26,637 nt of DNA from positions 1 to 26,637 of IMG/VR virus record IMGVR_UViG_3300044953_000562; one strand, 5' to 3'. Both the position numbers and the translations under genes were made by a program. Positions 6,560 to 25,187 of the stretch are shown in pieces. The notes under the pieces were generated by a model, which saw only the letters and a program-made list of their open reading frames with translations, was not told the origin of the DNA and did not search any database. Source of the DNA: a virus. Each line of letters opens with the position of its first letter. Position 1 is the stretch's first letter.

Positions 6560-6560
6560 C

Positions 6561-7351: not shown

Positions 7352-8952
7352 TGGCCGCAGTAGGAAAGATCGACAGCAACTCGACGCTGCTTCGCTTCGC
7401 GGAAGAGACCAGCCTCGGTACTCTGTCCGGTTCGCCCACGTTCTACGAGATGGAGCCCAACAGCTACTCGGACTTTGGGCCCTCCGTGACGCTGGTCCCT
7501 CGTGTGCCCATCAACCAGAGCCGGCAACGCAAGAAGGGCGTGCTGACTGACCTGGACGCCTCGGGCGGCTTCAACACCGACCTCACGCAGACCAACCTCG
7601 AGCGGTTGATGCGTGGGTTCATGTTCGCCAACTGGCGAGAGAAGGCCAAGACCAAGTCCGACTACGGCAACGGCACGACCGTCACGCTGACTTCCACGAC
7701 CACCTCGGCCTACGTCTCCTCGGCGGGCAACCTGGGCATCTTCCGCGTCGGCGACCTCGTGTTCGCCTCCGGCTTCACGAACACCGAGAACAACGGCCTG
7801 AAGCGAATCACCGCGGTCACCACCGACGGTGCTGGTGGTTCGCCGGACTCCGTCACCGTGGCGGAGACCCTCGTCGTTGAGACGCCTCCCGCCGCCGCGA
7901 AGCTCGTCCATGTGGGCTTCCAGTTCTCCGCCGGTGACCTGGACGTCACGACCTCGGGTGCTTTCGCCACCTACACCACCACGACCAAGGATCTCACCCA
8001 GTTCGGCCTGATCCCCGGTGAGATGATCTTCGTCGGCGACAGCACCACCTCGCTGATGAAGTTCACCAACGCCGCCAACAACGGCTTCAAGCGGGTGCGG
8101 TCGGTCACCGCCAACGCCCTCGTTGTGGACAAGTCCGAGTCCGCGATGGTCACGGAGGCTTCCACCTCCGAAACCGTTCGCATCTTCTTCGGTCGCGTGC
8201 TCAAGAACGAGTCCGATCCGACCAACATCGTCCGGTACACCTACCAACTCGAGCGGCAACTGGGCTACTCCGACACGGCGGACACCACGCTCAAGCAGGC
8301 GGAGTACCTCAAGGGTGCGGTGCCCAACGAGTTCACCATCCGCATCCCCTCCGCCGACAAGGTGATGGTCGACCTCTCGTTCGTCGCCAAGGACCACGAT
8401 ACGATCGACGAGAACACCACCGGTGCCGATACCCTGCGGTCGGAAGCGGCGGGTGCGACCGTCATCCCGGTCGTCGAGGCGGACGCCTTCAACACCTCGT
8501 CCAACGTGCCCAACATCACGATGCACGTGGTGAGCTCAACCGCCGAAGCCCCGGCTCCGCTGTTCTCGTTCGTCCAGTCCCTCGAGCTCACCATCAACAA
8601 CAACGTCACCCCGCTCAAGGCGGTCGGGACGCTCGGTGCGTTCGAGATGAACGCCGGTCTCTTCGCGGTCTCTGCGAACGCGACCGTCTACTTCAACGAT
8701 GTCGATGCCATGGCGACCATCCGTCAGAACTCTGACGTCACCATGGCGTTCCACCTGTACAAGGCCAACGCGGGCATGAGCTTCGACCTGCCCCTCATCG
8801 CCGTCGGCGATGGTCGCCCGGCGGTTGCGTCGGATACTCCCGTGACTCTGCCCCTCACGAATGAGGCGGCTTCGGGTGCCAAGGTTCTCTCCACGATGAA
8901 CCACACCCTCCTGATCGTGTCGTACGATTACCTTCCTTCTCTCGCGGAGTGA
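7351..8952 (+). CDS. Major tail tube protein
   Basis: 533 residues; polymerises into the tail tube. The N-terminus (LLRFAEETSLGTL, FYEMEPNSYSDFG, VPINQSRQRKKG, GGFNTDLTQTNLERLMRGFM) matches the Phage_tube_2 type of tail tube proteins. It is long for the family because of two related beta-rich inserts at about residues 127-175 and 218-265, both with a [VP]G[DE]xx[FI] strand and an NNG[LF]KR[IV] turn. The C-terminal half (for example LELTINNNVTPLKAVGTLGAFEMNAG) resumes the tube fold. GAGGTG (7340-7345) precedes ATG 7351. The next genes are the chaperone pair, as in lambda-like tails. Confidence 0.85.
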   Translation: MAAVGKIDSNSTLLRFAEETSLGTLSGSPTFYEMEPNSYSDFGPSVTLVPRVPINQSRQRKKGVLTDLDASGGFNTDLTQTNLERLMRGFMFANWREKAKTKSDYGNGTTVTLTSTTTSAYVSSAGNLGIFRVGDLVFASGFTNTENNGLKRITAVTTDGAGGSPDSVTVAETLVVETPPAAAKLVHVGFQFSAGDLDVTTSGAFATYTTTTKDLTQFGLIPGEMIFVGDSTTSLMKFTNAANNGFKRVRSVTANALVVDKSESAMVTEASTSETVRIFFGRVLKNESDPTNIVRYTYQLERQLGYSDTADTTLKQAEYLKGAVPNEFTIRIPSADKVMVDLSFVAKDHDTIDENTTGADTLRSEAAGATVIPVVEADAFNTSSNVPNITMHVVSSTAEAPAPLFSFVQSLELTINNNVTPLKAVGTLGAFEMNAGLFAVSANATVYFNDVDAMATIRQNSDVTMAFHLYKANAGMSFDLPLIAVGDGRPAVASDTPVTLPLTNEAASGAKVLSTMNHTLLIVSYDYLPSLAE

Positions 8953-8955
8953 TGC

Positions 8956-9348
8956 ATGAACATCTACGGTCTCAAGTCCCAGTGTCAGTACGCGGTTCTC
9001 GATCTCGGCGATTACGGGCGATTCCACATCGCCCCTGCCGAGGGCAGCACGAAGTTTGCGAAAGTCACGGAAGAGGTCTCGCGACCCTACCGTGCCCTGA
9101 TCAAGCACGACGCCCTCGACGAGAACAGGGCCAACCAGATCCTCGCCGAGATCTTCGCTCGCTGCGTTGTGGTGAACTGGGAAGGCGTGGTTGGAGAGGA
9201 CAACCAGCCGATCCCCTACTCGCAACAGAAGTGCAAGGAGCTTCTGCTCGAGATCCCGAACCTCTTCACGATCATTCGTGAGTTCTCCCGCGACACCTCC
9301 AACTTCCGCAACGTTCAGGCGGATGTGGGAAACTCTGCGACGTCCTGA
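8956..9348 (+). CDS. Tail assembly chaperone, unshifted form (gpG-like)
   Basis: 130 residues; CGGAG (8945-8949) is 6 nt before ATG 8956. It sits between the tail tube and the tape-measure region, where lambda gpG and its analogues bind the tape measure and recruit tube subunits. A slippery heptamer at 9327-9333 lies five sense codons before the stop (9346-9348), so most ribosomes make this form and a minority shift into the -1 frame. An ATG in another frame at 8952 is not used, because that frame gives an unstructured Arg/Pro-rich product. Confidence 0.85.
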   Translation: MNIYGLKSQCQYAVLDLGDYGRFHIAPAEGSTKFAKVTEEVSRPYRALIKHDALDENRANQILAEIFARCVVVNWEGVVGEDNQPIPYSQQKCKELLLEIPNLFTIIREFSRDTSNFRNVQADVGNSATS

Positions 9349-9659
9349 CATACGAATTGAAGATGGGGGCCATGGAGGCCACCATTGTCAAGACCTGTGC
9401 TCGGAGCAAGCGAGAGCTTCCCGAGAAGGTTAGGAATGCCCCTACCCTCGAGCAGGGGCTTGAGCTATACTACATTGCCTTCCAGCGACTCTCGAGCACG
9501 AGAGCCGTTGGTATGGGTCTCGGCCCGATACCCTGGACTGCGATTCAGACCTACTGCGAGACGTACGAGCTTGATGAGGTGACCCAAGAACTGATGCATG
9601 TGTACATCCCGGCCATGGACAATGTATTCCTGAAGATCTCCCAGGAGAAGAAATCATGA
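8956..9659 (+). CDS. Tail assembly chaperone frameshift product (gpGT-like)
   Basis: Predicted product of -1 ribosomal frameshifting: codons 8956-9333, then 9333-9659, 234 residues in all. The extension has a strong T-domain signature: LEQGLELYYIAFQRLSSTRA, VGMGLGPIPWTAI and a final VYIPAMDNVFLKI helix. That family pattern has no good independent start: TTG 9357 lacks a Shine-Dalgarno and begins after conserved-looking upstream residues. In lambda the T domain recruits tail-tube subunits to the tape measure, and the same role is inferred here. The product overlaps the next gene by 4 nt (ATGA). Confidence 0.85.
9327..9333 (+). promoter_or_regulatory. -1 frameshift slippery site G GGA AAC
   Basis: Heptamer GGGAAAC is phased exactly as X XXY YYZ in the upstream frame (GGA 9328-9330, AAC 9331-9333). 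After a -1 slip the tRNAs re-pair on GGG and AAA. The shifted frame is open from here to 9659. Lambda uses GGGAAAG at the same place in its G-T genes. No strong downstream stem was identified by eye. Confidence 0.88.
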
Positions 9660-10621
9660 AGAACGACATTGGACGTCTGGCCGCCGAGTACCTTGCCAAG
9701 TTCCCCACAGAATCGAATCGATCGATTGCTGCGGCACTGGCTCTGCACCACCCGGCGGTGGGCACGCTCGAGCAGTTCCGCAGTGCCGTGCGGCATCGTC
9801 GGGGTGCCGCTGGGAATGAGAAACGGAAGTCCGCGACCTGCGTGAGAGAGGAGATCCCGAAGACACGGGCACTCCCTCCCGACAACCTTCTCATCTCCGG
9901 CAATCGCCGTGTCCTCATCCTCTCCGACGTCCACGTTCCCGTCCACGACGAGATGGCGATGAAGACGGCGGTGAAGTACGGGAAGGATCACAAAGCAGAT
10001 ACCATCTTCCTCAACGGGGACTTCGTCGACTTCGCGAGGGTCTCGGATCACCGGCCCACGCCCGACCTCCCGGAGATGAGGGAAGAGCGGGCCGTGGCCA
10101 TCGAGTTCCTCACCTGGCTTCGCCGCCAGTTTCCGAGAGCCGACTTCTACTACCGTCTGGGGAACCACGAGGAACGGCTCGAAGCCTACGCCTACGACCG
10201 AGCCCCTGCGATCTGGGAAGAGGCTCTCCATTCGTTTGAAGCCTACTTGCGGTTGGAATCCCTGGGCGTTGCGTGCATCAAGTTCAGGCGTCGAGTGGAC
10301 CTTGGTAGCCTCAGAACCTACCACGGCCACGAGCTCCCCAAGGGCATCTCTTCCCCGGTGTCCCCGGCCAAGAGACTCTACGACCGAATGAAGACGACCG
10401 CCTTGTGCGGTCATTTTCATAGGACGAGCCGCTACGTCGCCCCCGATAGTGAACACAAGCTGGTCACCTGTCACACCGTGGGCTGCCTGTGTGGCCTCTC
10501 GCCCCTCTACGCGAGGGTGAACGACTGGAACTTCGGCTTTGCCTTCATGGAACTCGACAAGAGCGGCGACTTCATGCTGGACAATCTTGCGATTTCACGA
10601 TCGGGGAAAGTCTTCCGATGA
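9656..10621 (+). CDS. Calcineurin-like metallophosphoesterase
   Basis: 321 residues with a complete two-metal phosphoesterase active site: D91-x-H93 (SDVHVP), GD at 121-122 (LNGDFVDF), GNHEE 169-173, HGH 223-225 and GHFH 252-255. Such enzymes hydrolyse phosphodiesters or phosphomonoesters with Mn or Fe; the substrate cannot be read from sequence. Residues 1-50 look like a small helical, possibly DNA-binding, segment (SIAAALALHHP, EQFRSAVRHRRG) seen at the front of some phage phosphoesterases. AGGAG (9643-9647) precedes ATG 9656, and the start overlaps the chaperone stop by 4 nt. Location between tail chaperone and tape measure is unusual. It may be a moron (DNA or cyclic-nucleotide hydrolysis) or help tail assembly. 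Confidence 0.88.
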   Translation: MKNDIGRLAAEYLAKFPTESNRSIAAALALHHPAVGTLEQFRSAVRHRRGAAGNEKRKSATCVREEIPKTRALPPDNLLISGNRRVLILSDVHVPVHDEMAMKTAVKYGKDHKADTIFLNGDFVDFARVSDHRPTPDLPEMREERAVAIEFLTWLRRQFPRADFYYRLGNHEERLEAYAYDRAPAIWEEALHSFEAYLRLESLGVACIKFRRRVDLGSLRTYHGHELPKGISSPVSPAKRLYDRMKTTALCGHFHRTSRYVAPDSEHKLVTCHTVGCLCGLSPLYARVNDWNFGFAFMELDKSGDFMLDNLAISRSGKVFR

Positions 10622-10764: not shown

Positions 10765-11135
10765 GTCGAATTCAAAACAAAGCGTGGGATCAGATGATAA
10801 AGCGGGAGGCTCCTCGCTTCAAGGCCATTATCGATAACTACATCGTCGTTCGTGCTTCGAGGGTCATTCGAAATAGCCCGGTTGATACGGGTCTTCTCCG
10901 GAGTAACTGGGTCATCACGCTGAAGGCTCCCTCTACGCAATTGCGTCCTCCCCACTTCCCTGGTCGTAAACTGGGAAGAGCGGAGAAGGCCAACGCAGCG
11001 GCGGCCATTGCGGCTGTTCAGCGTGCTCTTGTCCCACGCAAGTGGGATGAAGGGTTTCACATTACGAATACTGCACACTACGTTGAAATCGCGATGAGCG
11101 AAGCGGAGAGCCTGATTCGGAAGGAGTTTCGCTGA
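10761..11135 (+). CDS. HK97 gp10-like tail completion/minor tail protein
   Basis: 124 residues. The SPVDTGLLRSNW segment (about residues 39-50) is the hallmark turn of HK97 gp10-type proteins, which follows a long N-terminal helix. The rest (AEKANAAAAIAAVQRAL, then HITNTAHYVEIAM) also fits. In most siphoviruses this family is encoded before the tail tube as a connector/neck protein. Here it sits directly before the tape measure, which may mean a tail-internal or assembly role. The start overlaps the previous gene by 4 nt, and the stop shares one base with the tape-measure ATG. Confidence 0.72.
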   Translation: MSRIQNKAWDQMIKREAPRFKAIIDNYIVVRASRVIRNSPVDTGLLRSNWVITLKAPSTQLRPPHFPGRKLGRAEKANAAAAIAAVQRALVPRKWDEGFHITNTAHYVEIAMSEAESLIRKEFR

Positions 11136-13915
11136 TGCCTGTTCCTCTCCCCAAAGCTGGCATTACGATTCCTGTCAACTTTTCTGTGAACGGCGCTCCT
11201 GCCGCACAGAATGCCGTCAATGGTGTCGGCAATGCAGCCAACAACGCGACGAAGAAAATCAACAATGCGACGGAGGCGCTGAATCGATTTCATGAAATCA
11301 CTCGTCGACTCCGTGACATCGTTTTCTTCTCTTCGGCGACGCTGTACCTCACGCGACTGATGTCTCATCTGTCAGACGAGTTCACGTTGTCGTCGAACCG
11401 TCTCTTTCAGTTCTATCGCAACGCCAACCTTGTTGCGGAGAAACAGAAAGAGCTCATCGAACTTTCTAACCGCACCCGCACCGCGTTCGCTTCGTCCGCC
11501 GAAATCTATACCAGAACGGCGTTGTCGACTCGCGAACTGGGGCTTTCGGAGCAAGACCGTCTTGACATCGTCGAGACCCTGAACAACTCCGTTCTCCTGA
11601 GCGGTGCGACTCAGGAAGAGGCGACGAACGGCCTGATTCAGTTCTCGCAGGCTCTTTCTGCGGGCCGGTTGGCTGGCGACGAGCTCCGTGCCGTGCTCGA
11701 GCAGCTTTCGTACATCTCGGAGATCATCGCGAAGGACTTGAACGTTGACCGAGCGGCTCTCCGCGAGCTCGGTGCTCAGGGTAAGCTCACTAGCGACATT
11801 CTGGTTCGAGCCGTTCTTGGTGCCACGGCCAAGACCAGGGAAGAAGTCAAGAACACTACGGTCACTCTGGGGCAGGCGTTCACCATTCTGAGGAACTCCA
11901 TCGTTCAAATGCTCGGAACGACACAGAGTGCGAAGACTCTGTTTTCTTCTATCGCTGATCTTTTGGTGACGATTGCGAGGAACATCGAGACGGTGACAAG
12001 GGTGCTCGTCGGCGGTGGCATCATCATCTTCTTGAATCGTGTGTACCGACTGATTCTCGCTATCCAGGCTGTCAAGACTTTCCCCTTCGTCTTTTTCCTC
12101 ACGACGGCTATCGGTGCCCTGGCTACTTTCTCCAGTGAACTGGAGGTCAGCGCAGAGCTCGGCATCACCCTCGAAGACGTCTTCGTTTCGACCTTCTCGG
12201 TTCTCCTCGAACTTCTTCAGAAAGCCGCTAAGTGGCTGTTGACTCTCAACGGTTACTTCGGAACTGAGTGGAGGACTTACTTTGATGACTTCAAGAAGGG
12301 TCTTGCCAGCGTCGCCGACTTCCTGGAGTGGTTGTCCCCGGCGATCAACGAGGTCATGACCATTACGATCACGGGCATTGGTTTGGTTATGAAAGGATTT
12401 GCCAACCTGGGCACTGGGATCGCAGAAGTTATCATTGGAATTCGGCATGCCTGGTTCTCTGCGATTGAGGCCATGACCGATATCATGAACACCAAGCTGA
12501 TCAAGCCCCTCAAAGACTGGTACGTAAAATACGTGAAGCTGGCTTTCGGGATCAATCCCAACAGTGGATTGAAGTTTGGAGTTGGCGGTAAGGTCATTGG
12601 CGGCCCGGAGGATGAAGACACTCCTGAAAAGAGGATCGCAGCTGATAATGCGTTCGCTCAGAAGATTCGTACTCTTCTGAACGCGAAGACCCCCGAGGAG
12701 ATTGATAAGCAGATAAACGAGGCCCTGACTGGTGCTGAAGTAGCTTCTGCGGCGGCTGCCGGTGGCCTCAAGTCACTCATTGAGGTTATGAGGAGACAGG
12801 GTGTTCCGCGACGTCCCGGAACTGACGATACCGAAATCAATGGCTTCCTGAAAGAGATCATCGAACCTGCCGCCAAGCGGGCCATTGCCCGCCGTGAAAA
12901 GAACACCAATCAGCGAGTCGACACTGCGCTCGCCCGAGACCTGGATTCGTTCGAGGATCCGTTCAACGAAGCTCGCCGCCGCTCCTTGACCGAGGTCACC
13001 TTCGACCTTGAACTGGAGAAGCTGCAGGCTCGGCAAGATCTCCTGCGACTCAATCAGACTACTTCTCAGAGTATTCTGGACGTCGAAGAGGATGCTCTGA
13101 AGATCTACGAGAAGACCGGAGATATCACGGGGCAGCAGATCCTCCCCGCGAAGAGGAAGGAACTCCTCGATACTCTCGAAACCAACCGTCTCCTTGAACT
13201 GCGAAGGCAAATCTATCGCGGAATCGTCGTTGATATGAAAGACATCAATGACAAGAACAAGGAACTACAGAAGCTCCAGAGAGATGGTGATATCAGCCAG
13301 GAACAAAGAATTCGGGCTGAACGGAAGAACAAGATCGACTCGCTCGAGAAGGCCACGGACGTCCTGTCCGGCTTCGAGCGGGGCTACCAGCAGGTGCTTC
13401 TGTCCCTCTCCGACTTTGCGTCCCAGGCGGAGCGTACCGTCGTCAACGCTTTCCAGACGATGGAAGATCAGGTTGTGAAGTTTGTCCAGACCGGCAAGTT
13501 CTCGTTTAGCAGTCTGGTCGATTCCATTCTCGCGGACCTTACCCGCCTGCTATACCGGCAGGCCCTCTCGGGCCTCCTCGGGGCCGGGGACGGTAACCCC
13601 CTGTTTGGTCTGCTCGGAGCCCTCGGAGGCGGTTCTCCGGCTCCTCTCGCGGCGGCGGGCGGTGCTGCCGCGACTCCCGGCAAGGGCTACCTCGTGGGCG
13701 AGCGAGGGCCGGAGCTCTTCTACCCGACTACCTCTGGCCGCATCAGCCCCAAGCCGATTGCCCAGGGGGGCGGGAGCGGTGTAAACTTGTCCGTGGTCAA
13801 CGTGCTCGACCCGGCTGAAATCACTGCGGCCATTTCTTCGCCGTCCGGAGAACAGGCCATCGTGAACTCGATTCAGCGCAACCGACGAACGGTCAGAAGG
13901 ACTCTCGGTGGCTGA
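11135..13915 (+). CDS. Tape measure protein
   Basis: 926 residues; sets tail length and is ejected with DNA. The N-terminal third carries the phage tape-measure domain (SNRTRTAFASSAEIYTRTAL, NGLIQFSQALSAGRLAGDEL, VLEQLSYISEIIAKDL). The centre has hydrophobic segments (about 285-335 and 400-440) that may insert into the host membrane. Residues about 620-780 are charged coiled coil. The end carries a lambda gpH-like tail: FSSLVDSILADLTRLLYRQA, then GYLVGERGPELFYP and GRISP. AAGGAG (11121-11126) precedes ATG 11135. At about 0.15 nm per residue the tail would be roughly 140 nm, which is a rule-of-thumb estimate. Codons are less GC-rich than in the coat and tube genes. Confidence 0.93.
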   Translation: MPVPLPKAGITIPVNFSVNGAPAAQNAVNGVGNAANNATKKINNATEALNRFHEITRRLRDIVFFSSATLYLTRLMSHLSDEFTLSSNRLFQFYRNANLVAEKQKELIELSNRTRTAFASSAEIYTRTALSTRELGLSEQDRLDIVETLNNSVLLSGATQEEATNGLIQFSQALSAGRLAGDELRAVLEQLSYISEIIAKDLNVDRAALRELGAQGKLTSDILVRAVLGATAKTREEVKNTTVTLGQAFTILRNSIVQMLGTTQSAKTLFSSIADLLVTIARNIETVTRVLVGGGIIIFLNRVYRLILAIQAVKTFPFVFFLTTAIGALATFSSELEVSAELGITLEDVFVSTFSVLLELLQKAAKWLLTLNGYFGTEWRTYFDDFKKGLASVADFLEWLSPAINEVMTITITGIGLVMKGFANLGTGIAEVIIGIRHAWFSAIEAMTDIMNTKLIKPLKDWYVKYVKLAFGINPNSGLKFGVGGKVIGGPEDEDTPEKRIAADNAFAQKIRTLLNAKTPEEIDKQINEALTGAEVASAAAAGGLKSLIEVMRRQGVPRRPGTDDTEINGFLKEIIEPAAKRAIARREKNTNQRVDTALARDLDSFEDPFNEARRRSLTEVTFDLELEKLQARQDLLRLNQTTSQSILDVEEDALKIYEKTGDITGQQILPAKRKELLDTLETNRLLELRRQIYRGIVVDMKDINDKNKELQKLQRDGDISQEQRIRAERKNKIDSLEKATDVLSGFERGYQQVLLSLSDFASQAERTVVNAFQTMEDQVVKFVQTGKFSFSSLVDSILADLTRLLYRQALSGLLGAGDGNPLFGLLGALGGGSPAPLAAAGGAAATPGKGYLVGERGPELFYPTTSGRISPKPIAQGGGSGVNLSVVNVLDPAEITAAISSPSGEQAIVNSIQRNRRTVRRTLGG

Positions 13916-14957
13916 CGAACTGGCTCTTGTCGAGAAGACGGATCTCTACACCGCCTCCAACGGTGTGGACGTAGAAGCCCTGTTGGCGTTGAGAGGATGG
14001 ACCGTCCAGTCGACGGGCAACGTCCTTTCGTCCAACACCACGGCTCATACGGGCTCGACCTCGCTGTTCCTGCCGCTCAACGCCAGCCCCACCGTCTCGG
14101 CGATCGGCCCGAAGGTGCTGGCGACCGCTCCGGTCAACGGCTTCTACCTGTCCTTCTGGCTGCGGAAGCCCAGCACGGACACCGGTCTCTTCGAGATCGG
14201 GTTCACGAACAACAGCACCACGACCCCGCACGCGAACAACAAGTTCTCGTGGACTCCGAAGTCCAGCGGCTCCGTCGTGACGCTGGTCATCGACTCGGTG
14301 ACCGTCTACAACCAGACGTCCAACGCCTCCTGGGAAGGCAAGGCGATCGGCTCGTGGGCTCTGATCGAGTTGTTCCTCTCCCAGACCACGGGCTGGAAGC
14401 TGTACCTGGACGGCGTGCTGATCTCCTCCGGTGCGCAGAACATCTCCGGCTCCTCGGAGCCCGACCGCGTTCTCTTCTACGCGAGCGGTTCGGCCTGCTC
14501 CGGCTTCCTGCTAGACGATGTGTTCGTTATCGCGGACCCGAGCTTCACGACTACCCGTGGGACTCGCTACCGTGTCCGCCAGATCAACCCGTCAGCGGAG
14601 GGCTCGTTGACCGCCTTCACGCTCGGTGCGGGCTCGACGAAAGTGGACGCCGTCTCGGCTCCCGCCGACACGGTGGACTACGCTGAGGGCGAGTCCGGTC
14701 AGTCGCAGACTTTCAATTTTGAGTTGCCTACCGGCACATACCTGGGCCTTGCACTGCAGCAGTATCGTCAGATGACCGCTGGCTCTCTGACGTCCCAGGC
14801 GATCAAGCGGTCTGGTGGCAGCAACACGAACATGGGCAGTTCGGAGACGGTCTCCTCGACCTCTCCTCACTTCAAAGAGACACTCACCAAGGTCGACCCG
14901 GTGACGGGCGTTGCGTGGGTCGCTGGCACACACGAACTGGGGCTTGTCCTGTCATGA
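13908..14957 (+). CDS. LamG-like virion or tail-associated protein
   Basis: 349 residues from GTG 13908, with AGAAGG (13895-13900) 7 nt upstream and an 8-nt overlap with the tape measure. Residues about 45-210 look like a concanavalin A/LamG jelly roll: TAHTGSTSLFLPL, GFYLSFWLRKPS, WALIELFLSQTTGWKLYLDG and a final DRVLFYASGS strand. These folds commonly bind glycans. The C-terminal 130 residues form a second beta-rich part (GSLTAFTLGAGSTKVDAV, TYLGLALQQYRQM). Encoded between tape measure and lysis-like genes, it is probably a tail or appendage protein contacting the host surface. The exact structural position is unknown. Confidence 0.62.
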   Translation: MADELALVEKTDLYTASNGVDVEALLALRGWTVQSTGNVLSSNTTAHTGSTSLFLPLNASPTVSAIGPKVLATAPVNGFYLSFWLRKPSTDTGLFEIGFTNNSTTTPHANNKFSWTPKSSGSVVTLVIDSVTVYNQTSNASWEGKAIGSWALIELFLSQTTGWKLYLDGVLISSGAQNISGSSEPDRVLFYASGSACSGFLLDDVFVIADPSFTTTRGTRYRVRQINPSAEGSLTAFTLGAGSTKVDAVSAPADTVDYAEGESGQSQTFNFELPTGTYLGLALQQYRQMTAGSLTSQAIKRSGGSNTNMGSSETVSSTSPHFKETLTKVDPVTGVAWVAGTHELGLVLS

Positions 14958-15343
14958 GAATCTTCCTCATCGCTCTCGTGCTGTTCGTCTCTGGTTGCGA
15001 AACCATCAAGATCGCCCACAAGCGGGCGGTCGGGGAACCGGTCACCGCTGAGGAGCAGCAGAAGTCCGAGCATGAAATGCTCATCCTCAACAGCCTCAGC
15101 GAGACGTTCCTCTCGATCGGCGGTCCCATTGGGGTGGCCGTCGGCGGGGTCATGTCTGGCCTATCATTCCTCCTGTACAGGATCGGCAGGCGGAAGGGCC
15201 TCGAAGACCTGATCGTGCCGATCCAGGAGTCGAAGATCCTCGAGGACAAGGCGGTCGGTGAACAACTTTTGAGCAAGATGACTCCAGGGATTCAGAAGCG
15301 ATTCAAGACCGTCAAGAACAAACCCGAGAAGCCCAAGACATGA
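14954..15343 (+). CDS. Lipoprotein with internal membrane segment
   Basis: 129 residues from ATG 14954 (ATGA overlap with the previous gene). Residues 1-14 are a lipoprotein signal (MRIFLIALVLFVSG) with lipobox VSGC and Cys15 as the predicted lipidated residue. A charged stretch follows, then a second hydrophobic segment at about 55-76 (IGGPIGVAVGGVMSGLSFLLY) and a basic, Lys-rich tail. Together with the two membrane micro-proteins that follow it may be part of a lysis cassette (outer-membrane spanin or unimolecular-spanin-like), but no spanin family motif is seen. A superinfection-exclusion lipoprotein is the alternative. Confidence 0.7.
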   Translation: MRIFLIALVLFVSGCETIKIAHKRAVGEPVTAEEQQKSEHEMLILNSLSETFLSIGGPIGVAVGGVMSGLSFLLYRIGRRKGLEDLIVPIQESKILEDKAVGEQLLSKMTPGIQKRFKTVKNKPEKPKT

Positions 15344-15519
15344 ACATCCAGATCGACGACAATCTGATCGCTGCGATTGTGGGCAGCCTTGGTGCGGGGC
15401 TCGCTCGCGTGGTTCACCACTTCAACATCCGCATCGCGAGCGCCGAGGTCAAGATCGAGTCCCTATCAACAAGGGTCGATGCCATTGAGGAGGCCGCCCA
15501 TGATCATGAATCCGCTTAG
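15340..15519 (+). CDS. 59-residue membrane/coiled-coil micro-protein
   Basis: ATG 15340 overlaps the lipoprotein stop (ATGA), and the frame ends TAG 15517-15519. The N-terminal part (LIAAIVGSLGAGLARVV, residues 9-25) is weakly hydrophobic. Residues 33-52 (ASAEVKIESLSTRVDAIEEA) form a heptad-like amphipathic helix. This order of short membrane segment and coiled coil resembles small holin-associated (XhlA-like) proteins, although XhlA has the reverse order. The 3' end carries the Shine-Dalgarno of the next gene. Function is inferred only. Confidence 0.6.
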   Translation: MNIQIDDNLIAAIVGSLGAGLARVVHHFNIRIASAEVKIESLSTRVDAIEEAAHDHESA

Positions 15520-15604
15520 CTTCGCGTGTGTCATCGCGTCTTCCGTCATCATCGCTGAACTGATGTTCCGCTTTGTGCTGTTCGTGTCCAACCGGTTTTC
15601 CTGA
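15500..15604 (+). CDS. 34-residue single-pass membrane peptide
   Basis: ATG 15500 has a very strong Shine-Dalgarno, GAGGAGG (15487-15493), at 6-nt spacing and encoded inside the preceding gene. The product is almost entirely one hydrophobic helix (about residues 8-30: FACVIASSVIIAELMFRFVLFVS) with a short basic end. A longer reading of this frame from 15377 adds only a basic, Ser-rich shadow segment. Its stop shares a base with the ATG at 15604. Candidate pinholin or lysis regulator; not a recognised family. Confidence 0.6.
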   Translation: MIMNPLSFACVIASSVIIAELMFRFVLFVSNRFS

Positions 15605-15615
15605 TGGAGTTTGAC

Positions 15616-17706
15616 ATGCTTCGCTACCTTGCTGCCCTGCTGCTCGCTATCACTCTGCCCGCCAACGCCCAGTGGACCCACCACGACGGCACCATCGTCC
15701 CCGATTACATCGGGAACGGCTTGCCGGGTGTTGTCATCGACCGCGACACCCAGTGGGCGGCCCCGACCAGAAACGAATTCGTCCATGTGACCAATGGGGC
15801 GACGCTGACCATCTCCTCTTTCTGCGAGGCGGACACGATCTACGTTACCGACGGGCTGCTCGTCCTCGAGCCGGGAGCCCGCGTGGTGATCAAGCACGTG
15901 GCAAGGAACTTCGACCTGAAGGATGTCGGCGGCGGCATCATCACGGTGAACAAGGGTGGACTCCGCATTCTGGGCACGCAGAGGCCCAGGGTGTTGCCCG
16001 TGGCCACCGATGTGGCCAAGGGAGCCACCGCCATCAACCTGCCGCCGGACCACGGCCTGCGGGCGGGGGACACCATTGTCCTCCCGATGACCGAGTTTTG
16101 GCGCAATGGCACCCTCGTTACGCTGGCCAATCATCAGGACGAAGTCATCGTCCTCACTGGCGTCTCCGCCACGACCGCGACCTGGAGCACGCCCACTCGC
16201 TTCAACCACATTCGCCCTCGCATGCCCGACGGCTCGCCCGCCTGCGACCTGCCGGTGGGCCTGCTCACCGCCGATGTGCGTATCGAGTCGGCGACGCCTG
16301 CCGATATCCCGTCTCGCGGTCATGTCATCCTCATGGGCGAGGGGGCTGTCGAGCTCTACAACGGTGCCTTCATCGGGCTAGGCCGATCACTGGTCGACGG
16401 CAATCAGCGGACGCCGCCTTTCACCGGCATCGCACCCCCTGGGCGTTATCCTATCCATGCTCATCACAGGATGCACGGCGAACCGCCGATTATCCAGGGA
16501 TGTGCTGTCTGGGGCGACGACCGCACGGCCCACGGCATCGTCTACCACCACTCTTTCTACTCGCAGATTCGCGGGAACTTCGTCTACGGCACGCTCGGGG
16601 CCGCCATCCTCGATGAGGATGGCAATTCTGTCGGATCCGTCATTATCGGCAATCTGGTCACGAGAGTTAGCGGACTCGGCGGTGGCTACTTCCAGGGCGT
16701 CCCCGCCACGATTCGCCACGTGGCTCAGTACCGTGCGGGTGGACACGCCTACGTCACGGCGGGCTATCGCCAGGCCGTTCGAGAGAACTGGGCCTGCGTC
16801 GGGGCTGCGAAGCCCGATCAGGCTGGCTTCATGATCTTCCCGCTGTTGGCTGAACCCGGCTTGATGCCGAACAGCCCGAACGCTCCTCATGACCAGTGGA
16901 CGATGCAGAACCCGCAGTACGGCATCGACATTGTTGTGAAAGACAACATCGTGATTGCCGGTGCGATCGGATACATCGCGTGGGGGATCAACGGGACGAG
17001 GACTTCTACGCTACCGGGGACCAATCGGACGCTGATCGGTCCCAACTACGCTTACGACGTAGCTTCTCGCGGCATGCACTTCTACGCCTGCTCGCGTCTG
17101 GACTGGAAGCAGGACACGATCGTTACTGGCCACAAGCAGCCGATCACCCAGGTGTTGTATCCTGCGACCGGCGTTACTCTGACGAACGATGAACGAATCG
17201 TGAACTGCAGCTACGAAGGTCGCATCCACGGCGTCGCCTTGGGCGTGTCTCTTTCTCCGTTCTTGGAGACATTCACTCTCAAGGGCTCGATCGTCGCGAA
17301 AGCGGGTATGCGGCGAGGCTGGCCCGCCACCCTGCAGGGTGCGGCCAATAACCCCAGAACCTTCCCTCCCCGCACTATCGAGATCCAAGCCGATCTCAGT
17401 GGCTGCCCAGAGATGGTTCAACAGGAGAATCATCCAGCCGCAGAACGAATTCAGGACGCCGCGACGAATGACGATTTGCTTGTCTGGCTCTTCGGAGTAA
17501 AATATCGGGCGTTCGCCCCGGACCAGTTCCCGGATGTCCTCGCCCCGATCACCGGTGTCTACCCGAACAACATCGGACGCCGGGGCAACGACCCGGTGCA
17601 CACCGGAAAGACCAACGCACAGGTTCCGCTGCCCTCGCGTGGAGCCGTGTCTCCGCGAGAGGGTAGGATGTGGTCTGGGATGATCCTCGTGGAAGCTCCT
17701 CAATGA
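15616..17706 (+). CDS. Secreted G8/CEMIP-like beta-helix protein
   Basis: 696 residues from ATG 15616, which has GGAG (15606-15609) at 6 nt. ATG 15604 would add MEFD and spoil the signal peptide. Residues 1-18 (MLRYLAALLLAITLPANA) form a Sec signal, cleaved before Gln19. Residues about 20-150 follow a G8-like pattern of short strands (VTNGATLTI, YVTDGLLVLEPGARV, ITVNKGGLRILG). A parallel beta-helix follows, with the motif set of eukaryotic CEMIP/TMEM2 proteins: YPIHAHH (278-284), RTAHGIVYHHSF (303-314), LGAAILDEDGN (327-337) and a following Asn-rich turn. Family members include hyaluronan-degrading enzymes. I infer a polysaccharide-binding or -degrading protein exported by the host, or a tail depolymerase. 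Confidence 0.75.
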   Translation: MLRYLAALLLAITLPANAQWTHHDGTIVPDYIGNGLPGVVIDRDTQWAAPTRNEFVHVTNGATLTISSFCEADTIYVTDGLLVLEPGARVVIKHVARNFDLKDVGGGIITVNKGGLRILGTQRPRVLPVATDVAKGATAINLPPDHGLRAGDTIVLPMTEFWRNGTLVTLANHQDEVIVLTGVSATTATWSTPTRFNHIRPRMPDGSPACDLPVGLLTADVRIESATPADIPSRGHVILMGEGAVELYNGAFIGLGRSLVDGNQRTPPFTGIAPPGRYPIHAHHRMHGEPPIIQGCAVWGDDRTAHGIVYHHSFYSQIRGNFVYGTLGAAILDEDGNSVGSVIIGNLVTRVSGLGGGYFQGVPATIRHVAQYRAGGHAYVTAGYRQAVRENWACVGAAKPDQAGFMIFPLLAEPGLMPNSPNAPHDQWTMQNPQYGIDIVVKDNIVIAGAIGYIAWGINGTRTSTLPGTNRTLIGPNYAYDVASRGMHFYACSRLDWKQDTIVTGHKQPITQVLYPATGVTLTNDERIVNCSYEGRIHGVALGVSLSPFLETFTLKGSIVAKAGMRRGWPATLQGAANNPRTFPPRTIEIQADLSGCPEMVQQENHPAAERIQDAATNDDLLVWLFGVKYRAFAPDQFPDVLAPITGVYPNNIGRRGNDPVHTGKTNAQVPLPSRGAVSPREGRMWSGMILVEAPQ

Positions 17707-17714
17707 AGTGAGTG

Positions 17715-17743
17715 TTGCCTTGTCAGCGAGTCTTCGGTACAAT
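17715..17743 (+). promoter_or_regulatory. Sigma70-like promoter for the tail-tip block
   Basis: TTGCCT (17715-17720) and TACAAT (17738-17743) are separated by exactly 17 nt, in the only real gap (17707-17772) of this part of the operon. Predicted start is about 17750, leaving a short leader with GGAG (17761-17764) ahead of ATG 17773. It shares the TTGCC box and spacing with 74-102. Confidence 0.68.
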
Positions 17744-19109: not shown

Positions 19110-21179
19110 GTGGCGAGGAGCTTCGCAAGCGCCAGCACGCAGTATCTCACGCGGAGCGACGCGGTAGGTATTTCTGCGTACCCGTTTTCGATGGCTTGTT
19201 GGTTCCGGGGAACATTCGGCACATCTGCAAGCTACCGATTGATGTCGTTGAGCAACAACGACGGTGGTGGTGGTGCGCCTTTCCATTCACTGACCGTAAA
19301 CCCCACAGGATCAGCGACAACAGACGATCAGTTGGCTGCTGACTCCTATGACGGTGTGGGATTCTCCTACGCGGCACACACGGGGGCTGTGCTGGCCAAT
19401 GATACGTGGTATCACGGTTGTGGCGTGTGGACTTCCGACACATCAAGAAAAATCTATAAAGACGGAGGCAATAGTTCAACAAACACGACAAGCCGAACCC
19501 TCGGTACGATGCAGCGATTTACTATCGGAGCACTGAGACGTAACTTGGTTATGAACTCTCCGATGGAAGGCCGGATCGCCGAGGCCGCCATCTGGAACGT
19601 GGCTCTCAGTGCTGACGATGCAGCCTCGCTGGCTGCCGGGGCGTCTCCGTTGACCATTCGCCGCGACGCCCTGGTGGGCTACTGGCCCCTGCGTGACGCT
19701 GACGGAGACATCTCAGCGGTCAACGCCTATACGATGACGCCGACGAACTCGCCGACCTACGGCGACCACATATGGGCGATCCGCCGTCCGTGGATCATGT
19801 CGGTCGGCCCGGCGATTGTTTCTAATCCCAAAGATCAGGTCCACAACTTCTCCGTTTTTGGAGTCCATTCTCCAAACTACGGATCGATTCATAATCTTTC
19901 TCTTCTCGCCTTGCTGCAACCGTCTCTCCACCTACTGAACGACCTTGCCATCCTTTCCGTGGAAGGGCCAGGCCGCTCGTCGGTGGCCAACCTCTCGGTC
20001 CTCGCCGTCACCGAGCCGACCCAGGATCTCGTGCTGAGCTTTGCTCCGGAAGTGGAGATCAACGAAAAGCTCGCGTGGGAGACTCACGTTCTGAGCTCGC
20101 TGACTGACGCAGAGCAGCGTATCGCGGAGCGTCGGTATCCCCGCCACACGCTCGAGCTCACCTACGTGCTGGCCGAAGACTCCCGGCGGTACATGGAGAG
20201 CATCCTCGCCAGCGGCAGGCAGAACTCCGTTTACGTCCCCCAGTGGCAGGAACCCCTCTGGCTGACGGCGACCGCTTCGGCGGGGGCTTCCACGCTGAAC
20301 ACCTCCGCTACCAACACGGCGGACATCCGCGTCGGCGACCGGCTTTTCATCTCCTACTCCGACACGGAATACGATCTTCTGCCGATCTCCGCTGTGGGGG
20401 CGAACTCCATCACGGTTTCGAGCCCGACGCTGCGGGAGTGGCCTTCCGGCACGATGGTCTGTGCCGCTCGGAAGTTTGCCATCCAGCCGACGAGCTCCGG
20501 CGATCGATCGCCCAATGAGGCACTTACTATCTCGATCGTCGCTAATTCGCTCGACCACGCGGTTGACCTCGCCGACTCGAGCAGCTTCGCTACGCAGGAC
20601 GGCCTGATCTTCCTGACGAATCCGAATGCGATTGACGGCGATTCCAAGCGAGAATATACGGTTCAATACCTTCAGTTGGATTCGCCCGCCTCTCGGTTGC
20701 GCTACGACACCCGCTGGAGCCAGTCCAAGGTCACCTCCCACCAGGGCCTCAACAGCACCACCCCAGCAGGCAGGCGGGCTATCAAGGGCCTTCTCTACGC
20801 CCTCCGGGGCAGGCAGGTGGCGTTCTACGTGCCCCTGCACGAAGAGTCCCTAGTCGCCTCCGCTGTGACGTCCGGCACGAACTACGTCGACGTTGCGAAG
20901 TCCGGTCTGCTGGACTGGTCGGCACACGCAAAGAACAAGCTGCGCACCACCCTGGGCGGAACGGCCTACGTCAAGTCGATCACGGCGGTCCAGGAAGTCA
21001 ACACCACGACCGACCGCATCTACCTCGATAGCAACTGGGCTGCCTCTGGCACCCCGACTCGGGTAGAATACGTCGAGCTCGTCCGCTCAACGTCGGACAG
21101 CTTCACGATTCGACATCTGGATCAGTTGGGCAACTCCGAACTCCGGTTCACGGTCACGAGTGTGCTAGATGACGTTTGA
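19110..21179 (+). CDS. LamG-distal tail protein fusion
   Basis: 689 residues from GTG 19110; GAGGAG (19095-19100) is 9 nt upstream. Residues 1-200 are a LamG/concanavalin domain (FASASTQYLTRSDAV, FSMACWFRGTF, DTWYHGCGVWTS, EGRIAEAAIWNVALS, VGYWPLRDADGD). Residues 245-308 are four 16-residue repeats with consensus xNLSVLAVxxPxxxxV. The rest looks like a tail-tip or distal tail protein with two related halves: YPRHTLELTY, YVPQWQEPLWLTA and IRVGDRLFISY, then LRYDTRWSQSKV, RQVAFYVPLHEESLV and FTVTSVLDDV. It lies directly before the gpL- and hub-like genes, as a Dit/gpM-type protein should. The lectin-like front probably projects outward and binds a glycan. Confidence 0.68.
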   Translation: MARSFASASTQYLTRSDAVGISAYPFSMACWFRGTFGTSASYRLMSLSNNDGGGGAPFHSLTVNPTGSATTDDQLAADSYDGVGFSYAAHTGAVLANDTWYHGCGVWTSDTSRKIYKDGGNSSTNTTSRTLGTMQRFTIGALRRNLVMNSPMEGRIAEAAIWNVALSADDAASLAAGASPLTIRRDALVGYWPLRDADGDISAVNAYTMTPTNSPTYGDHIWAIRRPWIMSVGPAIVSNPKDQVHNFSVFGVHSPNYGSIHNLSLLALLQPSLHLLNDLAILSVEGPGRSSVANLSVLAVTEPTQDLVLSFAPEVEINEKLAWETHVLSSLTDAEQRIAERRYPRHTLELTYVLAEDSRRYMESILASGRQNSVYVPQWQEPLWLTATASAGASTLNTSATNTADIRVGDRLFISYSDTEYDLLPISAVGANSITVSSPTLREWPSGTMVCAARKFAIQPTSSGDRSPNEALTISIVANSLDHAVDLADSSSFATQDGLIFLTNPNAIDGDSKREYTVQYLQLDSPASRLRYDTRWSQSKVTSHQGLNSTTPAGRRAIKGLLYALRGRQVAFYVPLHEESLVASAVTSGTNYVDVAKSGLLDWSAHAKNKLRTTLGGTAYVKSITAVQEVNTTTDRIYLDSNWAASGTPTRVEYVELVRSTSDSFTIRHLDQLGNSELRFTVTSVLDDV
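19842..20033 (+). repeat. Four 16-residue coding repeats
   Basis: Four consecutive units encode HNFSVFGVHSPNYGSI, HNLSLLALLQPSLHLL, NDLAILSVEGPGRSSV and ANLSVLAVTEPTQDLV. The spacing is exact (48 nt each) and the first-half strand and the Pro are conserved. The DNA copies have diverged, so the repeat is old and shaped at the protein level. Confidence 0.75.
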
Positions 21180-22020
21180 TACGAAGGAAATCTCGACGTC
21201 AGGCTCGCGACCGGTCGAACTCTATGAATTCACACTAGGAAGTGACGCTTATCGGTACGTGGCCTCCGATAATACCTACTCCTACCTCACCCAGACCTAC
21301 TACCCGACTCAGATCACGCGGTCCTCGTCGGTCACTGGGCGAGAGGAGAGCCAGGAGAACCTCTCCGTCACGCTGCCCCGGCAGAACGCGATCGTCAGTC
21401 GCTACCTGCAGAACCCGCCGGGCGTCAAGTGTGTGTTGAACATCTATCGGACGCAGATCGGGGAGACGGACGGCATCCTCGTCTTCAAGGGGCTGGCCAA
21501 GGCCATCGTGTTCTCTGCTGACGGGGCCTCGGCCACCATCACGTGTGCCCCGCTTACCGTCGGCCTGTCCCGGCTGATCCCTCGCTACACCTACTCGACG
21601 CCCTGCAATTTTGTCCTGTTTGATAGCAATTGCGGCGTGAAGGAGTCGAAGTTCACCCGAAGGCTCCGGATCACGGCGGTGAACGGTACGACGCTGACGA
21701 TCGCTCTCGCGGGCGGCCTCGGGAACAACTACTACAAGGGCGGTTGGCTCTCCGTCCCGGACACCGGGGAGCATGTGCTGATCCTTCGGCAGACCGGTGA
21801 TAGCGTGGGCATCCTTCGCCCAGTGAACGGGCTGGAAGTCGGTGCTTTGGTGGACATGAAGGCCGGGTGTCCACACACGATGACCGCTTGCAACACGAAG
21901 TTCAACAACGCTGCAAACTACGGTGGCTTCGCCTACGTGCCGACGCGGAACGTGTTCCGGAGCGGCATCCAACAGAATCCTGATGAAACCCCTCGCGGGC
22001 GTGGAGGCATCGGCTACTAA
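21169..22020 (+). CDS. Tail tip/hub-associated protein (DUF2163/BR0599, gpL-like)
   Basis: 283 residues. The N-terminal half fits DUF2163 (VELYEFTLGSDAYRYVASD, YYPTQITRSS, ENLSVTLPRQNAI, ITCAPLTVGLSRLIPRY). The C-terminal part fits the BR0599 pattern (YSTPCNFVLFDSNCG, AGCPHTMTACNTKFNN, YGGFAYVPTRNVF). Cys146, 155, 234 and 241 are spaced 9 and 7, like the four iron-sulfur ligands I recall for lambda gpL, so a bound cluster is plausible. These proteins join the distal tail ring to the hub. The start overlaps the previous gene by 11 nt, and the stop shares a base with the hub ATG. Confidence 0.8.
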   Translation: MTFDTKEISTSGSRPVELYEFTLGSDAYRYVASDNTYSYLTQTYYPTQITRSSSVTGREESQENLSVTLPRQNAIVSRYLQNPPGVKCVLNIYRTQIGETDGILVFKGLAKAIVFSADGASATITCAPLTVGLSRLIPRYTYSTPCNFVLFDSNCGVKESKFTRRLRITAVNGTTLTIALAGGLGNNYYKGGWLSVPDTGEHVLILRQTGDSVGILRPVNGLEVGALVDMKAGCPHTMTACNTKFNNAANYGGFAYVPTRNVFRSGIQQNPDETPRGRGGIGY

Positions 22021-25000
22021 TGGGATTCTTCTTCACACTGTTCTTGTGGGGCTTCTTCTTCCTGCTCTCGGAGCTTCTGCGTCCGAAGCCCAAGCAGGAG
22101 CAGGCCCGCCCCGCCGGTCTGGGCGACTTCAACTTCCCGACGGCCTCTGAGACTCGCCACATCCCGCTCGTCTGGGGTACGGTGAAGATTGACGGCCCGA
22201 ACGTCGTGTGGTACGGCGACCTGCAGAAGATTCCCATCACGAAGAAGGTGAAGACCGGCCTCTTCTCTTCGAAGACCGTCGTGGTGGGGTATTACTACTT
22301 CCTGGGTGTGCAATTCGCCCTCTGCCGAGGGGTGGCCGAGGAACTGCGTCGCATCTGGGTGGACGAACGCATCCTCTACGATGGCACGGTGAGCGGTTCA
22401 CTCGAGCACAACGAAACGGTCAGCATCAACCGACCGCTGTTCTTCGGCGGCACGGAGAACGGCACAGGGGGCCTTGTGGGACCGTTGCGTTACCTCAGCG
22501 GAACGACTCCTCAGGCGGCACCGACGTACCTCGCCGGCAAGCAGAACCCGACCACGGGCTACCCCGGAACGGCCTATGTCCTGCTAGAGCGGATGCTTCT
22601 TGGAACGTCCTCCAACCTGCCCCCCTGGGCGTTTGAGTTGCAGAAAATTCCGGAAGATCTCTCGTTCGCGGACCCCGACGGTACGGTGGATCTGAACTTC
22701 GATGTGAACCCGCCAAGCACGGAAGATACCTACACTGCTCCGGAAAACTTCACGACTCGCGGGACGGTCACCATCCGGACTTACGACAACGGTGCATTCG
22801 TAGACGGTGACATCATCACGGTTACCGTCAACGGCACAGTGGTCCGCGACTACTACACGTTGCCTAGCCCGGCTTCGCCCGACATCCTCGACATCACGCA
22901 ATACCTTCTGCCCTACCAGCAGAATGAGATCACCGTCTACGCCCACAACGAAGGCGGCGTTGGGCCCAGGAACACGACGCAGTTCGATCTGCTGGACGAA
23001 GACGGTTCGGAGATCACTGGGCGATTCAACCTGCTCCCCCTCGATACCGGCTACCTGTATTTCAACTGGTATCCGGAAGTCCCCTCGTCCACGATTGACT
23101 ACGGCGACGGCGTGCTGGACGCCAACCCCATCTACGTCCTCTGGGAGATCATGACGAACTCCGACTGGGGGCTGGGGCTGCCTACCTCGGACATCGACCG
23201 GTCGAGCTTCCTCGTGGCGGCGGCTACCTGCACCGAAGAACTCAACGGCTTCTCTCTCATCCTGGATAGCCAGCGGGAAGCCTACGACCTGATCGAGGAG
23301 ATCCAGCGGCAGGTCGACGGCGTCGTCTTCATCTCGCCCCGAACGGGCAAGTGGAAGATCAAACTGATCCGCAACGACTACGTCGTCGACGATCTGGTCG
23401 AACTGAACGAAAGCAACATCCTCGAGATCAAGGACTACACCAAGGGCACGATCGAGGATACGACGAACGAAGTCCGGGCGGGGTACTCCCGCCGGGTCGA
23501 CTTCTATCAGGAGAGCTTCATTGTCGCTCAGGACTCGGCCAACATCAGGGCCCAGGGGGAAGTCGTCTCTACGACGATCCAGTTCCCCGGCGTGAAGAAC
23601 TCGCACCTTGCGTCGAAGCTCGCCTGGCGGGAACTGCGGCTCCTGAGCTACCCGCTGGCGAAGGCTACGCTCCGCTTGAATCGGTCGATGTACCTGCTCG
23701 AGCCGGGGCAGGCGGTCCGCTGGTCTGACCCTCTCCTGGGCTTCACCAACCTCGTCATGCGGGTGACTCGCATCGACTACGGGTCGCCCAGTGACGCTTC
23801 GATTGAGGTCAGTCTGATCCAGGACATCTTCGGTCTCGACGAAGCGTCGTACGATGATCCGCCGGATGGGGAATGGGAGAACCCAACCGAACGTCAACCG
23901 GAAGACGTCGATCTCGTTGATCAGGTGGTATTCGAGGCTCCCTACGCGATGTGTCGCGTCGAGGGTGTGTCGATCGCTCGCGTCTGGTTCGGGGCTCGCA
24001 GTTCTTCGCAGTACATGATCGGCAAGACCGATGCCGACACGGCGGTCGGCGAAGTGAACGCCTCGATGCTGACGCTGCAGTTGTCGGCGGCCCTGAACGC
24101 CTCGGACACGAGCTTCACGGCGTTGGCCTCGCCCGATACGGCGGCGGACGTCGACGCGAGAGGGACGTTCGTTGTTTCGTCGACTCAGAACGGCGAAGAA
24201 CTCCTTCAACTCGTTCTCGTCGATCAGGAGTTCATGCTCGTCAACTCGATGGTGAACTCCGCTGGCAACTTCGCCTTCACGGGCGTCACTCGTGGCGTAC
24301 TGGACAGCGTGCCGACGACTCACTCAGCCTATGCTCGCGTCCACCTACTGTTCACGGGCGGCAACCTCACGACCAAGGCGTATGAGGGCAACGAAGTCCT
24401 CGACTTCCGTATCTGCCCCGTCTCCGCTGGCGAAGCCCTGGACTATGCCTCGGCGACCTCGAACTCCCTCACGCTCCAGAACCGGGCGGTCCGTCCCTAC
24501 CCGCCGGTCGACCCCGTCGTCAACTCGGTCAGTTGGCCTTCCTCGGTAAACGCCAACACCGGCCTGAACGTGTCGTTCACTCGTCGCGACTACCTGGGCA
24601 CGAACGAAGTCACGCGGGCGACGACGAGTGCCTTCCCTGGCTCCACCGAATACCGGTGCCGCGTCCTAACTGATGGCGTGGAGCGGTTCACGACGGCCTG
24701 GAACAGCGGGGCGGCCAGCATCGACGTCTATCGTTCAAGGGTGCTCCGCTACACTTCAGGTGCCCTGCCGACGAACATCACGTGGGAGATCGCGACGAAG
24801 CACACCTTCGGCGGTTCGCCCATAGAGGCTCTTCAAAAGCTGACCCACACCGCAACGTACACTGACAGCGAGCTCTCCAACGACACCAACATGGGAGTCC
24901 GGACGTCCGGTGTGGCGACAGCTTCGTGGGTTGTTCCTGACACCGGCACCTACGACTTCATCCTCGAGAGCTCGGCGTCCCTCGCGGTCGTGGTGGAAGC

Positions 25001-25187
25001 CCAGGTGAACGGCGGTGGCTGGTCGACCGTGATTACGTCGGGTGCGACGACCGGCACGCTGGCCCTCACGGCGGGCGATAGTCTGGCCATGCGGTTCACC
25101 GGCACGGCTGCTCGATCGGAGCTCCTCGTGCGAGCTCTCGCTCCCGTTAGCACTGCGGACGGATACGCCGTTTACTCTATCAGCTAG
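22020..25187 (+). CDS. Tail hub / host-recognition protein (gpJ/GTA-hub-like)
   Basis: 1055 residues, the last gene of the tail block. After a very hydrophobic N-terminus (residues 2-20) come the usual hub opening (ASETRHIPLVWGTVKIDGPNVVWYGD) and a domain with WVDERILYDG, LLERMLL and WAFELQKIP. A jelly-roll-like insert lies at about 220-335. The hub core follows (ANPIYVLWEIMTNSDWGLGLP, ATCTEELNGFSLILDSQREA, IQRQVDGVVFISPRTGKWKIKLIR, then ARLNRSMYLLEPGQAVRW). The C-terminal 400 residues are tandem beta domains, including a fibronectin-like part (YPPVDPVVNSVSWPSSV). Forms the tail-tip plug and probably receptor contact. Closest to Phage-tail_3/gpJ-type proteins by pattern. Confidence 0.85.
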   Translation: MGFFFTLFLWGFFFLLSELLRPKPKQEQARPAGLGDFNFPTASETRHIPLVWGTVKIDGPNVVWYGDLQKIPITKKVKTGLFSSKTVVVGYYYFLGVQFALCRGVAEELRRIWVDERILYDGTVSGSLEHNETVSINRPLFFGGTENGTGGLVGPLRYLSGTTPQAAPTYLAGKQNPTTGYPGTAYVLLERMLLGTSSNLPPWAFELQKIPEDLSFADPDGTVDLNFDVNPPSTEDTYTAPENFTTRGTVTIRTYDNGAFVDGDIITVTVNGTVVRDYYTLPSPASPDILDITQYLLPYQQNEITVYAHNEGGVGPRNTTQFDLLDEDGSEITGRFNLLPLDTGYLYFNWYPEVPSSTIDYGDGVLDANPIYVLWEIMTNSDWGLGLPTSDIDRSSFLVAAATCTEELNGFSLILDSQREAYDLIEEIQRQVDGVVFISPRTGKWKIKLIRNDYVVDDLVELNESNILEIKDYTKGTIEDTTNEVRAGYSRRVDFYQESFIVAQDSANIRAQGEVVSTTIQFPGVKNSHLASKLAWRELRLLSYPLAKATLRLNRSMYLLEPGQAVRWSDPLLGFTNLVMRVTRIDYGSPSDASIEVSLIQDIFGLDEASYDDPPDGEWENPTERQPEDVDLVDQVVFEAPYAMCRVEGVSIARVWFGARSSSQYMIGKTDADTAVGEVNASMLTLQLSAALNASDTSFTALASPDTAADVDARGTFVVSSTQNGEELLQLVLVDQEFMLVNSMVNSAGNFAFTGVTRGVLDSVPTTHSAYARVHLLFTGGNLTTKAYEGNEVLDFRICPVSAGEALDYASATSNSLTLQNRAVRPYPPVDPVVNSVSWPSSVNANTGLNVSFTRRDYLGTNEVTRATTSAFPGSTEYRCRVLTDGVERFTTAWNSGAASIDVYRSRVLRYTSGALPTNITWEIATKHTFGGSPIEALQKLTHTATYTDSELSNDTNMGVRTSGVATASWVVPDTGTYDFILESSASLAVVVEAQVNGGGWSTVITSGATTGTLALTAGDSLAMRFTGTAARSELLVRALAPVSTADGYAVYSIS

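Follow-up and report, generated by a model that had tools for sequence, protein, structure and literature searches.

A CEMIP/TMEM2-family beta-helix protein with a predicted Sec-type signal peptide, encoded between the tape measure and distal tail genes of a phage

Within the 26.6-kb virus record examined here (IMGVR_UViG_3300044953_000562, all 26,637 nt of which are referred to below as the window), an intact frame of 696 codons runs from an ATG at 15616 to a stop at 17706, and the core of the protein that it encodes is a member of the CEMIP/TMEM2 beta-helix family, with a similarity far beyond chance. Judging from the sequence, we consider it somewhat better than an even bet (roughly 0.6) that this protein is a depolymerase which is made late in infection, exported by the host Sec system and breaks down the capsule or matrix of that host itself. 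On this reading, a siphovirus-like phage would have acquired an entire bacterial gene for a secreted CEMIP/TMEM2-family enzyme, together with its signal peptide, in an expandable slot that separates its tape measure gene from its distal tail genes. The gene would be transcribed with the late operon, the product exported by the host Sec machinery, and the enzyme would act on host capsule, exopolysaccharide or biofilm matrix late in infection or after lysis, which could help progeny to escape and reach new cells. The retained signal-peptide-like N-terminus, the family core, the layout common to bacterial relatives, the enlarged slot with its accessory gene and the TMEM2-like fold all speak for this reading.

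Family membership and conserved residues

The features of the gene are as follows.

15606..15609, + strand: Shine-Dalgarno sequence GGAG, 6 nt 5' of the ATG at 15616 (direct reading)
15616..17706, + strand: CEMIP/TMEM2-family beta-helix protein, 696 aa (ORF, Pfam, tblastn, profile, model)
15616..15669, + strand: predicted Sec-type signal peptide MLRYLAALLLAITLPANA, predicted cleavage before QW (reading, hydropathy, layout of bacterial relatives)
16321..16323, + strand: invariant His236 (alignment of relatives; His in TMEM2 too)
16381..16386, + strand: Gly256-Arg257, invariant in the subfamily, the Arg not kept in TMEM2 (alignment)
16441..16668, + strand: Pfam CEMIP_beta-hel match, residues 276-351 (Pfam search)
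16444..16467, + strand: RYPIHAHH motif (R277 Y278 P279 H281 H283 H284), RYPVHFH in TMEM2 (alignment)
16546..16548, + strand: invariant His311 (alignment including TMEM2)
16609..16623, + strand: LDEDG motif (E334 D335 G336; alignment including TMEM2)

An earlier note on this DNA had proposed kinship with CEMIP/TMEM2 from three quoted motifs, all of which were found as written, in an ORF at the coordinates that it had given. The kinship is borne out by a profile built from bacterial family members only, which scored 135 bits (E 2.8e-40) when the best of 2000 shuffles reached 6.5 bits, by tblastn matches (E to 8e-11) to proteins annotated as G8 that are encoded on plasmids of Roseobacter and others, and by the fold match to TMEM2 described below. 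The search with G8 and CEMIP models that the note had suggested gave a divided answer. The Pfam CEMIP_beta-hel model (PF24606) matched with E 7e-6 and 26.4 bits, just under the cut-off of 27.3, a cut-off exceeded by all eight of the distinct viral-contig relatives tested from the first pattern scan, and the combined family profile matched human TMEM2 (8C6I) with E 1e-29. G8 (PF10162) gave no Pfam match at E up to 1, and a profile of the relatives' N-terminal region did not beat shuffles, so the G8 part of the proposal did not hold at the level of sequence. As residues from 33 onward of the predicted structure align with TMEM2 from residue 127 (VIA-align), a remnant G8 fold is nevertheless possible. 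PHROGs and NCBIfam searches with the protein gave no match, and a phmmer search of PDB sequences with the single protein produced a chance match only.

The predicted structure, an AlphaFold2 model built with 41 sequences (pTM 0.82, mean pLDDT 73), has pLDDT mostly above 80 for residues ~60-350, with local dips, and is weak in its C-terminal third. When it was compared with known structures, a check also put forward in the earlier note, the human TMEM2 ectodomain (8C6I) ranked first in the PDB by Foldseek (E 5.6e-11; query TM 0.50), with depolymerases and tailspikes of phages coming next, and the named matches in the Foldseek viral library likewise included tailspikes and capsule depolymerases. 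VIA-align gave Z 23.5 for TMEM2 over 553 residues, the longest span of all rows. Alginate epimerases (Z ~23) and the RbmB lyase (Z 22) are similar in Z, over ~300 residues; hence the fold alone cannot single out the CEMIP family, which the sequence does.

Among 41 relatives, the columns that never vary are R234, H236, G256, R257, Y278, H281, H283, H311, G328 and E334. H236, RYPxHxH, H311 and EDG are common to TMEM2 and the window protein, in which RYPxHxH, the downstream His and E-D-G appear in the family order. Many other conserved positions are changed (E338S, W148L, R219A, N273A and W306H among them), and the protein could therefore be inactive or altered in specificity. We know of no CEMIP/TMEM2 family member for which the catalytic residues have been established. 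Tentatively, and at rather less than even odds, the minimal phage and bacterial forms may keep the essential site alone (H236, RYPxHxH, H311, E334-D335) and so point to the TMEM2/CEMIP active site, tailed phages having repeatedly taken up such enzymes, here as a Sec-exported 'matrix exit' enzyme. Small members that keep the few residues invariant as far as human make the question of the TMEM2/CEMIP active site directly testable.

The N-terminus and bacterial relatives

The ATG at 15616 was taken as the start, rather than an alternative in-frame ATG at 15604, because only the former has the GGAG at 15606-15609 at a spacing of 6 nt. The signal peptide, also claimed in the earlier note, was judged by eye, by simple hydropathy and by N-terminal homology to bacterial relatives: n-, h- and c-regions and an A-x-A site can be read in MLRYLAALLLAITLPANA ahead of QW, and the top 11-residue hydropathy is 2.45, though the simple rule used for calling signal peptides is loose and is passed by 7 of 69 slot ORFs from related loci, most of them unconvincing. 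Many bacterial relatives have a signal peptide ending in A-x-A before Q and then a His-rich stretch, as the window protein does (for example, ...VAWAQEIHNHS... in a bacterial protein and ...PANAQWTHHD... here). As bacterial relatives share this layout, the gene is most likely, on its sequence, that of a bacterial secreted polysaccharidase captured whole, which favours the recruitment from a bacterial polysaccharidase that the note had offered as one possibility.

When 84,980 species genomes were scanned, 48 relatives were found, mainly from Acidobacteriota, Nitrosomonas and Planctomycetota, the best at 33-34 % identity; identity to bacterial relatives over the core domain is ~23-34 %. In a tree of the family, the viral rows fall into more than one clade, and the starred branches require a minimum of five changes from viral to bacterial carriers or back, the tree being a quick search with SH-aLRT support only, in which the window protein is a long branch of unsure exact place. 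Repeated capture by phages of bacterial secreted genes of this family is the simplest account. The end branch of the window protein measures 2.77 substitutions/site, and the keeping of a signal peptide despite such divergence of the core argues for selection on export.

That long branch, together with the many conserved positions lost and the undetectable G8, is also what would be expected of a catalytically dead carbohydrate-binding protein or a degenerating passenger gene. We give this explanation the least weight of those considered, because the 696-codon frame is open, the residues selectively kept are exactly those invariant from phage to human, and GC3 is phage-like at 0.76. As this value is similar to that of the neighbouring genes, the gene is by composition no recent arrival.

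At three Roseobacter plasmid loci (L003, L004 and L005), glycosyltransferase genes immediately precede the G8/CEMIP genes, and the G8/CEMIP gene of L005 adjoins an O-antigen ligase gene too. These neighbours hint at trimming of exopolysaccharide by the bacterial proteins, and are in line with an enzyme acting on the cell's own exopolysaccharide. Outside the Roseobacter plasmids, no consistent polysaccharide theme was seen around the bacterial relatives.

The tail operon and relatives in other viral contigs

The gene lies in a phage tail operon, as the earlier note had stated, and is preceded there by the tape measure gene and followed by tail genes. The surrounding features are listed below.

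11135..13915, + strand: tape measure protein, upstream border of the slot (Pfam, PHROGs)
13908..14957, + strand: slot protein, 349 aa (no Pfam or PHROG match)
14954..15343, + strand: small protein with a lipobox-like N-terminus (MRIFLIALVLFVSGC) and a hydrophobic segment, slot neighbour (no family match)
15340..15519, + strand: 59-aa protein with a hydrophobic segment (ORF)
15500..15604, + strand: 34-aa hydrophobic ORF whose end lies 12 nt 5' of the CEMIP ATG (direct reading)
19110..21179, + strand: tail protein (Laminin_G_3 and phrog_1082), downstream border of the slot (Pfam, PHROGs)
21169..22020, + strand: tail assembly protein, phrog_778 (PHROGs)
22020..25187, + strand: tail hub/tail protein, phrog_1101 (PHROGs)

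Upstream of the slot lie genes for terminase, portal, a P22-type coat protein, tail tube and tape measure, and the CEMIP gene itself is preceded by the three small ORFs (14954-15343, 15340-15519 and 15500-15604), each of which encodes a hydrophobic segment. The head-tail region also includes a metallophosphoesterase gene (phrog_221, 9656-10621), and a nucleoside 2-deoxyribosyltransferase-like gene (phrog_355, 25462-25830) is found 3' of the tail genes. The tail protein at 19110-21179, in which an N-terminal Laminin_G_3 (concanavalin-like) domain is fused to phrog_1082, is possibly a carbohydrate-binding tail tip. Searches of the window for tRNA genes and Rfam families gave no match.

A similar module is present in Bradleyvirinae, for example in Xanthomonas phage DoCa10, in whose annotated first 36 kb no CEMIP-like protein was found. 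None of 80 viral loci fetched using the tail hub gene carries a relative of the CEMIP gene, many of these loci being short and not spanning the slot. In the 20 related loci where both borders could be placed, the tape-measure-to-tail slot is 0-2.9 kb, either empty or holding two main genes (1.9-2.9 kb), compared with 5.2 kb in the window. The enlarged slot and the absence from the 80 loci indicate that the CEMIP gene is accessory and not a core part of the tail.

An accessory gene in a variable slot, adjoined by small hydrophobic or lipoprotein-like ORFs and with an apparently exported product, might instead be lysogenic-conversion cargo, encoding an exported enzyme by which the host surface is remodelled to keep out other phages, or which helps the lysogen to use polysaccharide from its environment. 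We regard this as quite improbable, since no promoter-like site of its own was found upstream of the gene on the + strand, expression is expected with the late genes, and no integrase or repressor was seen within the window. The sole candidate for a dedicated promoter, at 17715-17743, is 3' of the gene and at chance level, and was rejected.

Relatives were found in ~14 other viral contigs, several of them among structural genes, using a hand-made YPxHxH...ED pattern with many chance matches then removed by profile. Scans of viral contigs for close relatives, using the window protein and the neighbouring tail proteins, found none. The relatives in L014 and L017 have coat-region genes on one side and the tape measure gene on the other, that in L033 follows a coat-like gene, and those in L045 and L041 lie before or upstream of terminase and portal genes. 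Those in L012, L015, L031, L047 and L049 may be in the host flanks of proviral contigs. In L013 (a 77-kb viral contig) the gene is flanked by genes for a ribonucleotide reductase and a dCMP deaminase. The proteins of L014/L017, L016 and L045 form a related group (42-47 % identical), and the two genes preceding the CEMIP gene are also common to L014 and L016 (~50 % identity), one of them with a weak thioredoxin-domain PHROG match. As the proteins of L045, L013 and L033 have no signal peptide, phage members of the family are not generally exported, and virion-borne or intracellular forms may exist also. In the L033 protein (6298-10101, 1268 aa, 3' of a P22-like coat gene), residues 19-109 are similar to a small ORF that adjoins the protein annotated as major capsid protein in Manatee Spring podoviruses (MW202742), so the L033 protein may be a CEMIP fusion attached to the capsid or virion; only these residues, which precede the G8 and CEMIP domains, matched isolate phages by tblastn.

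Such relatives bear on whether the window protein is itself virion-borne, a tail component digesting surface polysaccharide at entry with its N-terminal hydrophobic stretch uncleaved or unused. The gene has the same orientation as the tail genes around it, tailspikes account for most beta-helix depolymerases of phages and are the next fold matches after TMEM2, and the L014/L017, L033 and L045 relatives lie among head, tail or packaging genes, those of L045 and L033 encoding no signal peptide. However, the window protein has kept a predicted Sec signal peptide of the kind common to secreted bacterial relatives, has no recognised virion-binding N-terminal domain, and is absent from all related tail modules examined, and we consider a virion-borne role unlikely, though it is the strongest of the alternatives to export.

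This branch of phage CEMIP enzymes appears to be undescribed in the resources searched, since there is no PHROGs family for the window protein or the L014 relative, and no isolate-phage match by tblastn for either of these or for the L041 relative. No literature linking CEMIP or G8 with phages was found.

Comparison with known systems

TMEM2 and CEMIP (KIAA1199, HYBID) are cell-surface or secreted hyaluronidases important in human hyaluronan turnover. The window protein resembles them in its beta-helix fold and in the conserved RYPxHxH, H311, EDG and H236, and differs in being phage-encoded and without a G8 domain detectable by sequence. TMEM2 also has ~170 extra residues between two profile-matched stretches (chain 164 to 335) that are absent from the family profile. 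We infer that this insert is lectin-like domain 1, where reported inactivating TMEM2 substitutions fall (PMC10206443). Even the activity of human TMEM2 is disputed (PMC10206443 and PMC10276149 versus PMC10474455); hence, family membership does not imply that hyaluronan is the substrate.

The secreted G8/CEMIP_beta-hel proteins of Acidobacteriota, Nitrosomonas, Planctomycetota and Roseobacter plasmids share the same core and, in many cases, the same signal-peptide layout, but the window protein has diverged much further, and no G8 can be recognised in it.

As a rule, the polysaccharide depolymerases of phages are tailspikes bound to the virion. Those of phi297 (gp61), LKA1 (gp49) and AP22 (gp54), the K1 lyase, and the P22 and HK620 tailspikes are likewise right-handed beta-helices that act on polysaccharide, but no sequence kinship with them was detected, and the window protein has a predicted Sec signal peptide and no recognised virion-binding domain, with no match to a head-binding family in Pfam or PHROGs. 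If exported by means of a signal peptide inherited from a bacterium, it would be a soluble 'public good' enzyme, unlike virion-bound tailspikes. Phage depolymerases in soluble form are already recognised as a class (PMC7232179), and WceF of Pantoea stewartii, by description an exported beta-helix enzyme with a tailspike-like fold, acts on the exopolysaccharide of its own host, though it has a Tat signal and is encoded by a bacterial gene (PMC7949094).
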